Source of the DNA: Candidatus Nitrosopelagicus sp.
Lineage (GTDB): Archaea > Thermoproteota > Nitrososphaeria > Nitrososphaerales > Nitrosopumilaceae
Length of the DNA: 37,482 nt
Direction of reading: 5' to 3'
NCBI GenBank assembly: GCA_028242535.1
Contig: JAOJYB010000009.1
Span: 1 to 37,482, forward strand
Shown: positions 22,853 through 26,654 of the stretch, in pieces
Layout of the letters: each line of letters begins with the position of its first letter
Position numbering within the stretch: the first letter of the stretch is position 1
Program-made: the position numbers and the translations under genes
Notes under the pieces: generated by a model
What the model was told of the DNA's origin: nothing
Databases searched by the model: none
Seen by the model: only the letters and a program-made list of their open reading frames with translations

Positions 22853-23515
22853 TTATGCTTTTTTTGATAAATCAGACTGTAATTTCTGCCAGTCAGATAG
22901 GAACATTTTAAGACCTTTATCAGTTAAAGAGTGACCAAGCATTTTTGCTAATACACTGGCAGGTAAAGTTACAACATCAGCGCCGATTTTTGCTGCATCT
23001 ACAACATGTTGTGGATGTCTTACACTAGCAACAAGAATTTGTGTTTTAAAATCATAATTTGAAAAAACTTGTTTAATTTCTCTAATTAGATCCATACCAG
23101 TGTGACCAATATCATCTAATCTTCCAATGAAAGGACTAACATATTTTGCACCTGCCTTAGCAGCAAGAAGTGCCTGATTGGCTGAAAATACAAGTGTAAC
23201 ATTTACAGGTATTCCTTGTTCTGAAAAACTCTTACAAGCTTTTAGACCATCACCTGTCATTGGACATTTGACAACAACATGATCACCATATTCTCGAAGT
23301 TTTTTTCCTTCTTCCATCATTCCATTATAATCAGTGCTTACAACTTCTAAACTAACATCACCTTTGATTATTCTAGTGATTTCTTCCATTGCTGCATGTG
23401 GATCACCACCTTCTTTTGCAAGTAATGAGGGGTTTGTGGTAATTCCATCCAGTAAGCCCATGTCATTATATTTTCGAATATCTTCAATATTCGCAGTATC
23501 AAGGAAAATTTTCAT
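22853..23515 (-). CDS. tal: Transaldolase / fructose-6-phosphate aldolase family
   Basis: A 220-residue Schiff-base aldolase of the small transaldolase type. The N-terminus MKIFLDTANIEDIRKYN and GITTNPSLLAKEGG are diagnostic. The active-site Lys is in VVVKCPMTGDGLKA near residue 84, and PFIGRLDDIG and ASVRHPQHVVDAAKIGADVVTLPASVL follow. Members are either transaldolase or fructose-6-phosphate aldolase; the context with transketolase and epimerase favours transaldolase. ATG overlaps the stop of the transketolase C-subunit gene (ATGA). Confidence 0.92.
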   Translation of the reverse strand: MKIFLDTANIEDIRKYNDMGLLDGITTNPSLLAKEGGDPHAAMEEITRIIKGDVSLEVVSTDYNGMMEEGKKLREYGDHVVVKCPMTGDGLKACKSFSEQGIPVNVTLVFSANQALLAAKAGAKYVSPFIGRLDDIGHTGMDLIREIKQVFSNYDFKTQILVASVRHPQHVVDAAKIGADVVTLPASVLAKMLGHSLTDKGLKMFLSDWQKLQSDLSKKA

Positions 23516-24480
23516 TGTTTACTCCGGATATCTTTGACATTTTTTTCTATATTAATTGATGTGATGCCATGTTTTTCAAATAATTGATGTATTTCACTAT
23601 CACGAGCAGATTCACCAAACATATCTTGTGCTCCAATTCTACGTATAGGAACTGGATATAATTCAGACACCACTTCAGAAACAGCAGAGCCAAATCCACC
23701 CAGAATATTGTGTTCCTCACAAGTGACGATTCCACCAGTCTCTCTTGCAGCCTTTTCTAAGATATCTTTGTCAATTGGTTTTATTGTAAAACAATCAATA
23801 ACCCTACATGAAATACCACCTTGTTGAAGTTTCTCAGCTGCATCAAGTGCCATTTTTACTGTTATTCCAGTTGCAGCTATAGTACAATCATTTCCATCTC
23901 TTAATGTTATACCTTTTCCGATTTCAAATTCTTGAGAATTAGAGTATACAGTAGAAACCTTGGATCTTGCCATTCTCATGTAAAATGGACCATAAGTTTG
24001 TGCAATATTTTTTGTTAGTTTTGAAACAGCAACTGCATCAGCAGGAATTAGAACTTTCATGTTTGGTATGACACGCATTATTGCGATATCTTCAATGGTT
24101 TGATGAGAACCGCCATCAGCACCAACAGATAATCCACCATGAGATGTTACAAGTTTAACATTTAGACCTTTTTTTTCTCCTCTTGATGGGTATGCAATTG
24201 AATTTCGTATTTGATCAACACATCGTCCTGGCAAAAAGATTGCATATGTGCTTGCAAAAGATATTTTTCCAGAATAAGCTAATCCTGCAGCAACAGATAC
24301 TAAATTTGCTTCAGCTATACCTACATTAAAGAATCTTTCAGGAAATTGTTTTCCAAAACCAGATGTTTTCAGTGAATCAGTAGTGTCTGCACCTAAAACA
24401 ACAATATTTTTATTTTGTTCACCTAACTCAATGAGAGCTTTTCCATATGCAGTTCGCATGTCACCAAACTCAGTACTCAT
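23512..24480 (-). CDS. Transketolase C-terminal subunit
   Basis: A 322-residue subunit supplying the pyrimidine-binding and C-terminal domains of a split transketolase, which moves two-carbon units between sugar phosphates with thiamine diphosphate. RTAYGKALIELGEQNKNIVVLGADTTDSLKTSGF begins the Pyr domain, ERFFNVGIAEANLVSVAAGLA holds the catalytic Glu, and the C-terminal domain starts near residue 200 (TIAATGITVKMALDAAEKL) and includes the CEEHNILGGFGSAVSE segment. It follows the N-subunit with a 1-base overlap (TAATG), consistent with equal expression. Confidence 0.94.
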   Translation of the reverse strand: MSTEFGDMRTAYGKALIELGEQNKNIVVLGADTTDSLKTSGFGKQFPERFFNVGIAEANLVSVAAGLAYSGKISFASTYAIFLPGRCVDQIRNSIAYPSRGEKKGLNVKLVTSHGGLSVGADGGSHQTIEDIAIMRVIPNMKVLIPADAVAVSKLTKNIAQTYGPFYMRMARSKVSTVYSNSQEFEIGKGITLRDGNDCTIAATGITVKMALDAAEKLQQGGISCRVIDCFTIKPIDKDILEKAARETGGIVTCEEHNILGGFGSAVSEVVSELYPVPIRRIGAQDMFGESARDSEIHQLFEKHGITSINIEKNVKDIRSKQ

Positions 24481-26144
24481 TAATATCCAAGCTCCGTTGC
24501 TATTTGTGTGAGTTCGTCTTTTTTCTTACCTAGTACATGCAAGTCAATCCATTTATTCACCAGTTCAGTGCCGCCAAGTTCATTGGCTTTTTGAATCAAT
24601 AATTTACGTCTAGTTCTCAATACTTGATTTCTGAATTCCCGTATCACTAATCGAACATCAGTTTGACCGATTATTGCACTTCCTCCAACAAATGCACGTG
24701 CACCATCTGCAAAGCATTGACCAATATTATCTAAAGTTACTCCACCATCAGCTTCTATGTAACCAGTAAAATTATTTTCTTTCAAACTTGACATGAGGTT
24801 TTTTGTTTTTTCATGTGTATTTTCAATGTATTTTTGACCTGACTTACCAGGTACAACAGACATTACGATAACTTGATCAAGTGTAGGAATGAATTTTTTA
24901 CTCCATTCAGGCATAGGAGTATCAGGATTTATTGCTAATCCAACACTAACTTTATTCGATTTTAATAGATCATGAATTTCACCAAAACTTGATTCGTCAC
25001 ATACTTCAGTATGAACAGTTACAATATCACTTCCAGCATCAATATAATTTTGAATTTGTTTTACAGGTTCATTAATCATTAAATGAGTATCAAATGGAAT
25101 AAGAGTTAGAGACCTTAATTCTTTAATTTTTGTATAATCAAAAGTAGAATTTGGAACAAATTGACCGTCCATAACATCTAGATGAATATAATCAGCACGT
25201 CCATCATCACAGTGTTTCACTTCATTTTCTAAATTTGTCATATCACCTGCTATTATAGAAGGTGCAATCATAAATTGTGAATCTAATTCTTGATTAATTA
25301 TAGGAACAAGTTCAGGATTAGGTGCTTTACCATGCCATTGCGGATTATCTTCCATGTGTTCAACAGCTTTTCCTTTAATTGTTCTAGCTATGATAATTGA
25401 TGGCATGCCTTTAACAGATTTTGCTCTACTAATTGCATTAGAAATTTGTTCAATTCTATGACCATCAACTTCAATTACATTCCATCCAAAGGAACGCCAT
25501 TTGTCACCAGTTTTCCATCTACTAGCATCCCTCCACATTTCAGATAGTTCATCACCCTCAAGAGTTTCATCTAGTGGCATAATTTTTTCAGTGTAAGAAT
25601 CTTGTTGTATGAAATTTCTATCAAGGATTAATGTCAAATTATCAATATTATATTTTGCAGCAGTCATTGCAGCTTCCCATACTTGACCTTCATCACTTTC
25701 ACCATCACCCATTACAGTGAAGATGTGCGTATCTTTTCCATCAAGTTTTGCAGCCAATGCATTTCCAATAGAGTATGATAATCCAATCCCTAAAGAACCA
25801 CCACAAAATTCAACACCAGGACATTTTAGATCAGGATGACCTTGTAATTTACTTCCAAATTGTCGTAGAGTATCTAATTGTGATTCTTCAAAATATCCAG
25901 CTACTGCCATGTTTGAAAATAAACCTGGAGATGCATGACCTTTTGATAAGATTAGTTTATCACGATCTTCCCATTCAGGGTTTTTTGGATCATATTTCAA
26001 ATGATTATAGAATATGCATCCCATGATTTCGGCCATTGAGAATGAACCTCCAGGGTGACCAGAACCAGCCACAGAAGTTCCACGAATAACTAATTTTCTT
26101 GCTTGAAGAACATTTTTTTTAATTTGATAGTAATTCAGGCCCAT
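24480..26144 (-). CDS. Transketolase N-terminal subunit fused to ribulose-phosphate 3-epimerase
   Basis: A 554-residue fusion. Residues about 1-280 are the thiamine-diphosphate-binding half of a split transketolase: GHPGGSFS (H30), KGHASPGL, and the ThDP/Mg motif GDG (146-148) to N177. Residues about 292-500 are a complete ribulose-5-phosphate 3-epimerase: MIAPSIIAGDM (S296), HLDVMDGQFVPN (H321, D323), DTHLM (H354), VVPGKSGQKY, ADGGV (D466) and GGSAII. All the expected catalytic positions are present, so both parts look active. A roughly 50-residue helical tail follows. The reading frame is continuous with no sign of a frameshift. Confidence 0.95.
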   Translation of the reverse strand: MGLNYYQIKKNVLQARKLVIRGTSVAGSGHPGGSFSMAEIMGCIFYNHLKYDPKNPEWEDRDKLILSKGHASPGLFSNMAVAGYFEESQLDTLRQFGSKLQGHPDLKCPGVEFCGGSLGIGLSYSIGNALAAKLDGKDTHIFTVMGDGESDEGQVWEAAMTAAKYNIDNLTLILDRNFIQQDSYTEKIMPLDETLEGDELSEMWRDASRWKTGDKWRSFGWNVIEVDGHRIEQISNAISRAKSVKGMPSIIIARTIKGKAVEHMEDNPQWHGKAPNPELVPIINQELDSQFMIAPSIIAGDMTNLENEVKHCDDGRADYIHLDVMDGQFVPNSTFDYTKIKELRSLTLIPFDTHLMINEPVKQIQNYIDAGSDIVTVHTEVCDESSFGEIHDLLKSNKVSVGLAINPDTPMPEWSKKFIPTLDQVIVMSVVPGKSGQKYIENTHEKTKNLMSSLKENNFTGYIEADGGVTLDNIGQCFADGARAFVGGSAIIGQTDVRLVIREFRNQVLRTRRKLLIQKANELGGTELVNKWIDLHVLGKKKDELTQIATELGY

Positions 26145-26267
26145 CGTAGTTTATTGACCAATTTGATACTTTTAATTTTACACATGATCGTCCTCAAGAA
26201 AAAATACCTAGAATTACATAAATAGCTATTTCCAAAAATTTTAATCTTCAAAGATCGTACTGAAAAT

Positions 26268-26654
26268 ATGGATTTTCATGATTCACTGCCACTCATGCTT
26301 TATGATGACAGATGTTATGTTTGTATAAAATTTGCCAAATTAATGAATTTTTTAGCTAAAGGAAAATTACGTATGATCGGTCATTATACAGAATTTGGGG
26401 GAACGATTAGAGAAAAAATTCTAGAAGATGATGCATTGGAAATGTTTTGGTTTATTGATAAAAAAACAGCATATGGAGGAAGGGCTGCAATTATTCCATT
26501 ATTATCAGCAATTCTGAGTATTCACGACAAAAAATTCAATGAAATGAGCATTCAAGAATCATGTGATATAGGATGCAAGGATTCACTTGCAGTGTTTTTC
26601 CGTTCTGCCAGTCTAATTACTCACAGTAGAAAGATCAAGATAAGTAATCTATAA
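26268..26654 (+). CDS. DCC family thiol-disulfide oxidoreductase-like protein (DUF393)
   Basis: A 128-residue protein of the DCC (DUF393) family. The name-giving motif is LMLYDDRCYVCIKFAKLMN (D-D-x-C-x-x-C) near residues 10-25, in a thioredoxin-like arrangement, and YTEFGG and the MFWFIDKKTAYGGRAAI strand follow. Family members are presumed redox proteins; substrates are mostly unknown. It has its own short upstream region and is followed after 24 bp by leucyl aminopeptidase on the same strand. Confidence 0.82.
   Translation: MDFHDSLPLMLYDDRCYVCIKFAKLMNFLAKGKLRMIGHYTEFGGTIREKILEDDALEMFWFIDKKTAYGGRAAIIPLLSAILSIHDKKFNEMSIQESCDIGCKDSLAVFFRSASLITHSRKIKISNL

Follow-up and report, generated by a model that had tools for sequence, protein, structure and literature searches.

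Gene organization of the locus

The analysed stretch of DNA, here called the window, comprises 37,482 nucleotides of contig JAOJYB010000009.1 of Candidatus Nitrosopelagicus sp. and carries the following features around an open reading frame in which two enzymes of the pentose phosphate pathway are joined:

22853..23515, minus strand: transaldolase/FSA-family protein, 220 aa, TIGR00875
23512..24480, minus strand: transketolase C-subunit TktC with pyrimidine-binding and C-terminal domains, 322 aa, PF02779 and PF02780
24480..26144, minus strand: tktN-rpe fusion gene, 554 aa, ATG start, stop codon at 24480-24482
24483..24629, minus strand: C-terminal tail of the fusion protein, residues about 506-554, predicted helical
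24669..25268, minus strand: ribulose-phosphate 3-epimerase (Rpe) domain, residues 293-492, PF00834, with S296, H321, D323, H354 and D466
25269..25319, minus strand: junction between TktN and Rpe, residues 276-292, corresponding to the natural C-terminus of unfused TktN
25320..26111, minus strand: transketolase N-subunit (TktN, ThDP-binding) domain, residues 12-275, PF00456

The frame at 24480-26144 contains no internal stop, and in the Pfam search the encoded protein exceeded the cut-offs of both Transketolase_N (PF00456; 153.5 bits, cut-off 22) and Ribul_P_3_epim (PF00834; 182.7 bits, cut-off 21.1). The open reading frame is a complete split-transketolase N-subunit joined to a complete Rpe. 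The single-frame fusion proposed in an initial annotation of this DNA, which gave no strand and named these two Pfam families as a check, is real and lies on the minus strand; the epimerase span given there (about 24645-25271) is close to the Pfam match, and the tail of about 50 residues was located at residues about 506-554. The other half of the transketolase, which had been expected in trans, is encoded by the next gene, tktC, whose ATG has base 24480 in common with the stop codon of the fusion gene (one-base overlap). The stop codon of tktC in turn overlaps the start of the transaldolase-family gene by four bases. The product of the latter gene scored 306.4 bits with TIGR00875 (cut-off 245.95), and we take the Glu in SLEVVS and the Phe in YVSPFIG to be transaldolase-like residues as opposed to those of fructose-6-phosphate aldolase.

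On the other side of the fusion gene, 123 bases (26145-26267) separate it from a divergent small gene (26268-26654), which we assume to resemble DUF393/DCC-type proteins, and the promoter of the fusion gene is probably located within these bases. In the window's own genome, which is 81% complete, the single Rpe match is the fused one.

Distribution and reality of the fusion

Rpe matches and the lengths of the frames enclosing them were tallied by profile search in a class-wide sample of 300 genomes. Genome groups were given family codes; f1, the window's family, was taken as Nitrosopumilaceae from named loci, while f3 and f2 are presumed to be Nitrososphaeraceae and Nitrosocaldaceae, respectively. 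Frame length served as the proxy for fusion in most tallied genomes, and both domains were seen directly in one frame in the window, in 80 named f1 loci, in 22 f3 loci and in the additional f1 loci L194, L195, L196, L198 and L199. The 80 named loci are the 80 highest-ranking of 563 confirmed stretches, ordered by similarity to the fusion, and match the window protein over residues 1-554 or nearly so with 73-94% identity; the genome tally was unranked.

In f1, some Rpe match was present in 165 of 171 genomes, a count which assumes that 16 unlisted genomes of the 300 belong to more distant groups, as their ordering suggests. The match was of domain size in 164 genomes, and in 160 of these it lay in a frame of at least 540 aa; in the remaining four (G252, G242, G205 and G298) it was cut by contig ends. 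In f3, an Rpe match was found in 43 of 45 genomes, 42 times in frames of 545-612 aa, and the 43rd genome (G114) was shown to carry a frame of fusion size via its TktN frame of 541 aa. No Rpe match was obtained in six f1 and two f3 genomes of the sample, four of which (G152, G193, G240 and G257) also gave no TktN match, and the other four (G179, G281, G294 and G239) contained TktN frames of 134-282 aa only. The fusion is present down to genomes of 0.8 Mb. Outside the two families, no fusion occurred among the domain-size Rpe matches listed for a sample of 300 genomes drawn from the window's phylum, the range covered by the search, where the frames measured 226-295 aa. The two-domain architecture is thus present in f1 and f3, and its suspected lineage specificity holds within the groups searched.

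These counts bear on the possibility, raised together with the initial annotation, that an assembly error or a frameshift had joined two separate genes. Related families do have the two genes side by side and unjoined, but the recurrence of the fusion in independent genomes, with fusion-size frames in 160 of 164 f1 genomes (the others cut at contig ends) and 43 of 43 in f3, and with both domains directly visible in one frame in the 80 named f1 and 22 f3 loci, reduces the probability of an artefact to a practically negligible level. This is a real fusion, old and intact. Separate genes in close relatives, which had likewise been named as evidence that would speak against a fusion, were found in part: one genome of the window's genus, G168, has a stand-alone TktN and no domain-size Rpe match. 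In four other families of the order, separate neighbours are the usual arrangement. The stand-alone TktN of G168 (locus L186, contig C157) looks foreign, being unlike the f1 form, and directly precedes tktC; the first part of its TktC differs from that of the window and the later part is closely similar, with the change near a conserved stretch, and contig C28 of the same genome carries a separate TktN piece. This locus is possibly a chimeric contig or the result of recombination with a foreign split-transketolase operon.

Among the f1 genomes with a domain-size match, the weakest Rpe match (2.8e-43) was that of L199 in G133, a genome of 3.2 Mb; on reading, it still retains all five catalytic residues and the beginning of the tail.

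Conservation of the active sites

Active-site residues were counted by alignment column in 103 fused proteins, namely the window protein, 80 from f1 and 22 from f3. In the TktN part, S28, H30, H70, G148, N177 and H271 are identical in 103 of 103 proteins and residues 146-149 are invariant; the site residues are also invariant in a 32-row alignment. We take H30, H70, G146-D147-G148, N177 and H271 to be the cofactor and substrate residues of transketolase. In the Rpe part, S296, H321, D323, H354 and D466, regarded here as the catalytic Ser, two His and two Asp, occur as initially annotated and are likewise identical in 103 of 103 proteins; those of the window align with the residues of solved Rpe structures (1rpx and 2fli).

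The Rpe part passed the subfamily model NF004076 (195.9 bits, cut-off 165) and missed the cut-off of the equivalog model TIGR01163 (191 versus 212.6 bits), with a match from residue 292 to 504 that spans nearly the whole model. By its profile scores it is a member of the PF00834 family, and membership of the TIGR01163 equivalog is not claimed. Moreover, the Rpe loop reads PGKSGQ in most of f1 versus PGFxGQ in most others. Because of the missed TIGR01163 cut-off and this loop, a shift in epimerase rate or substrate is possible. The stronger version of this idea, in which the epimerase domain now acts on a different substrate, such as allulose-6-phosphate, or has become structural only, draws on the same two observations, but it has to accommodate the full identity of the five catalytic residues, the passed NF004076 model, an allulose-6-phosphate epimerase model (NF007266) missed by a wider margin (141.6 bits, cut-off 271) and the lack of any other Rpe match in the 81% complete genome of the window; it is therefore considered quite improbable.

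For the estimation of selection, dN/dS was calculated for 172 f1 pairs from the window and 33 of the 80 named loci, of which 163 (TktN), 156 (Rpe) and 147 (tail) were usable. The median values were 0.048 for TktN, 0.088 for Rpe and 0.112 for the tail, many pairs being near saturation at silent sites. Within f1, purifying selection acts on the fusion protein.

Probable origin of the fusion from neighbouring genes

The unfused gene order was analysed in 21 genomes of families f2, f4, f5 and f12, picked from 24 genomes with a match; G164, G212 and G253 were left out, and G164 and G212 were examined for TktN only. The gene order of the fusion locus, tktN-rpe-tktC, was present with three adjacent but separate genes in 19 of the 21 genomes, and the other two (G146 and G200) have broken TktN matches beside rpe. 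A transaldolase-family gene follows tktC in 8 of the 19 loci, a further 8 end inside tktC, and in 3 no such gene was found in the available downstream sequence (about 0.4 kb in G077 and G080, about 1.1 kb in G096). The spacing between tktN and rpe was determined for 18 of the 19 loci with assumed start codons: in all 6 loci from f2 and f5 the rpe start codon and the tktN stop overlap by 4 bases, the nearest in-frame rpe start lies 1-4 bases past the tktN stop in 11 f4 loci, and it lies 45 bases past in f12. Other arrangements were seen elsewhere, with rpe not between tktN and tktC in the f7 and f20 loci examined, divergent in f19 and after tktC in two f30 loci.

At the protein level, the W of the WHG motif is 20-21 residues away from the end of unfused TktN (four sequences from f2 and f5), and in eight fused proteins the WHG motif stands 23 residues before the xPS motif of the epimerase; therefore, essentially no linker was added. 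An indel at the overlap of tktN and rpe would suffice for the fusion.

For f1, the phylogenetic trees included the window and 14 of the 80 loci; segments shorter than 150 aa were excluded. The fused sequences form one clade with support of 100/99 for TktN and 100/100 for a concatenation of 56 rows, and in the Rpe tree the fused clade received an SH-aLRT value of 98 by a quick method with long-branch warnings. The simplest account is a single fusion event in an ancestor shared by f1 and f3, and separate neighbouring genes look like the ancestral state. The trees alone do not distinguish gain from loss of the fusion, but gain is favoured because the families outside the fused clade are unfused.

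Two independent fusions had been considered due to the likeness of the loop in most f1 proteins (PGKSGQ) to that of unfused f7 (PGKTGQ), as opposed to PGFAGQ in most f3 proteins, and were rejected since the fused sequences form one clade. The PGKTGQ loop of f7 was found in the stand-alone Rpe proteins of L155 and L156, whose branch is very long; next to the Rpe of L156 lies a full-length transketolase that is not split. A retained internal start for the production of free Rpe was also rejected, since M292 is common in f1, is often Leu or Phe in f3, and is hence not a conserved start.

C-terminal tail and fold model

In the aligned fused proteins (the window, 12 from f1 and 22 from f3), about 30-50 residues extend past the barrel. 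No like tail is present in 21 aligned stand-alone Rpe proteins, four of which, from f2, have short, unlike extensions. A single-chain AlphaFold2 model based on a shallow alignment of 32 sequences reached a mean pLDDT of 74.3 and a pTM of 0.72, and the fold matches 6yak and Rpe structures. In this model the tail consists of a helix at residues 497-533 and another at 540-551 with block means of 82-93, except for 72 at residues 531-540; parts of TktN (residues 179-210) are of low confidence in the chain alone. In a profile comparison, the f1 and f3 tails scored 25.4 versus at most 14.1 in 60 column shuffles, in a register that differs from the multiple alignment, and the two tails may be related. 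As a guess, the tail could serve in the docking of TktC or of another barrel.

Pathway context and proposed function

Further pathway genes were searched in 16 genomes, of which 13 belong to the fused families and the other three to f2, f4 and f19 (one each). RpiA was found in 15 of the 16, among them both genomes of the window's genus that this search covered, and the window's own genome (81% complete) gave no match. RpiB was found in 0 of 16 genomes. Hps and Phi each exceeded their cut-offs in 0 of 16. Both cut-offs are strict: of 14 control genomes, 2 passed that of Hps and 5 that of Phi. Below the cut-offs, the 13 fused-family genomes gave Hps matches of at most 22.6 bits, some of which are the fused Rpe itself, and Phi matches of at most 54.3 bits; a near-full Hps-like match of 170.7 bits (cut-off 200) occurred in the unfused f2 genome G067 (L184) and one of 125.8 bits in the f19 genome. 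With RpiA in 15 of these 16 genomes, no RpiB, and no Hps or Phi over the cut-off, the genes covered by this search suggest that the fused lineages most likely obtain ribose-phosphate from fructose-6-phosphate via transketolase, transaldolase, Rpe and RpiA.

When the pathway runs towards ribose, xylulose-5-phosphate is a product of both transketolase reactions and has to be converted by Rpe; a 1:1 fusion of the two enzymes fits this demand. The reading preferred here, to which we assign a probability of about 0.85, is that the gene encodes a putative bifunctional enzyme of the non-oxidative pentose phosphate pathway which is paired with TktC and arose once; the presence of both domains also supports the earlier proposal that one chain would carry two successive steps of the pathway. 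According to this reading, the TktN part would pair with the TktC encoded by the next gene, and ThDP would sit between the two chains of the resulting split transketolase, as it does in the alpha2beta2 enzyme 6yak. In the ribose-forming direction it would release one xylulose-5-phosphate per turnover, and the attached metal-dependent epimerase would convert this product to ribulose-5-phosphate for RpiA, so that the fusion would fix a 1:1 ratio and hold producer and consumer together. The gene would have originated once, by loss of the stop between overlapping or near-touching tktN and rpe in a tktN-rpe-tktC cluster, and have been kept in two families. Both activities, the assembly with TktC, the flux direction and the benefit of proximity are inferred.

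A narrower form of the same explanation, for which the chances are slightly under even, holds that the fusion only fixes co-expression and 1:1 stoichiometry, with the enzymes acting independently and gaining nothing from proximity. The genes of unfused relatives are already adjacent and mostly overlap or lie a few bases apart, such that joining them could be neutral, and this account needs neither a linker nor a new contact surface. On the other hand, almost every sampled member of the two families has retained the fusion, even at a genome size of 0.8 Mb, and this retention and the new conserved tail argue against it. Going beyond the bifunctional enzyme paired with TktC, it is conceivable, though unlikely, that fusion and helical tail bring tetramers of the split transketolase and oligomers of the epimerase together in a single large particle for making ribose, in which xylulose-5-phosphate is passed directly between active sites.

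Relation to known systems and significance

The initial annotation knew of no described case. However, the fusion is already known from sequence: a Tkt N-terminal-Rpe fusion, cluster 341.1, is reported for 73 of 98 Thaumarchaeota assemblies (PMC11237513, mSystems 2024), and with the same architecture (TktN upstream of Rpe) and lineage the window is by architecture a further instance of it. The passages of that article on cluster 341.1 give occurrence and pathway, suggesting a complete pathway in Thaumarchaeota and contrasting the non-oxidative pentose phosphate route with most other archaeal lineages, and do not include gene-order origin, a single event, an active-site check or the tail. In another study the non-oxidative pathway is called conserved in a hadal genome (PMC7265257). 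No biochemical study of the fusion was found in the open-licence PubMed Central literature. The present analysis adds the derivation of the fusion from adjacent genes by one event, the invariance of its active sites and the helical C-terminal tail seen only in fused proteins.

The closest solved relative of the N-part is the split-gene transketolase 6yak (E 3.2e-73; 43% identity in the fold alignment), which is likewise an N-terminal component with a separate C-subunit, but its N-chain of 309 aa lacks an epimerase. The Rpe structures 1rpx, 2fli and 3ovr belong to the same barrel family and the window's catalytic residues align with them, whereas they are free-standing chains of about 220-230 residues without a transketolase part or helical tail. 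The archaeal Hps-Phi fusion, named in PMC11237513, likewise places two consecutive steps towards ribose-phosphate in one chain, yet in another pathway and with other enzymes, neither of which exceeded its cut-off in the 16 genomes searched here.

The locus is a clear example from nature of adjacent genes merging, with sister families still showing the unfused arrangement, and it offers one protein in which to ask whether enzyme fusion speeds a coupled reaction. Should the large particle exist, ammonia-oxidizing archaea would have an enzyme assembly peculiar to them. These archaea are common in sea and soil, and the fusion is in keeping with their having a complete non-oxidative pentose phosphate route for making ribose.
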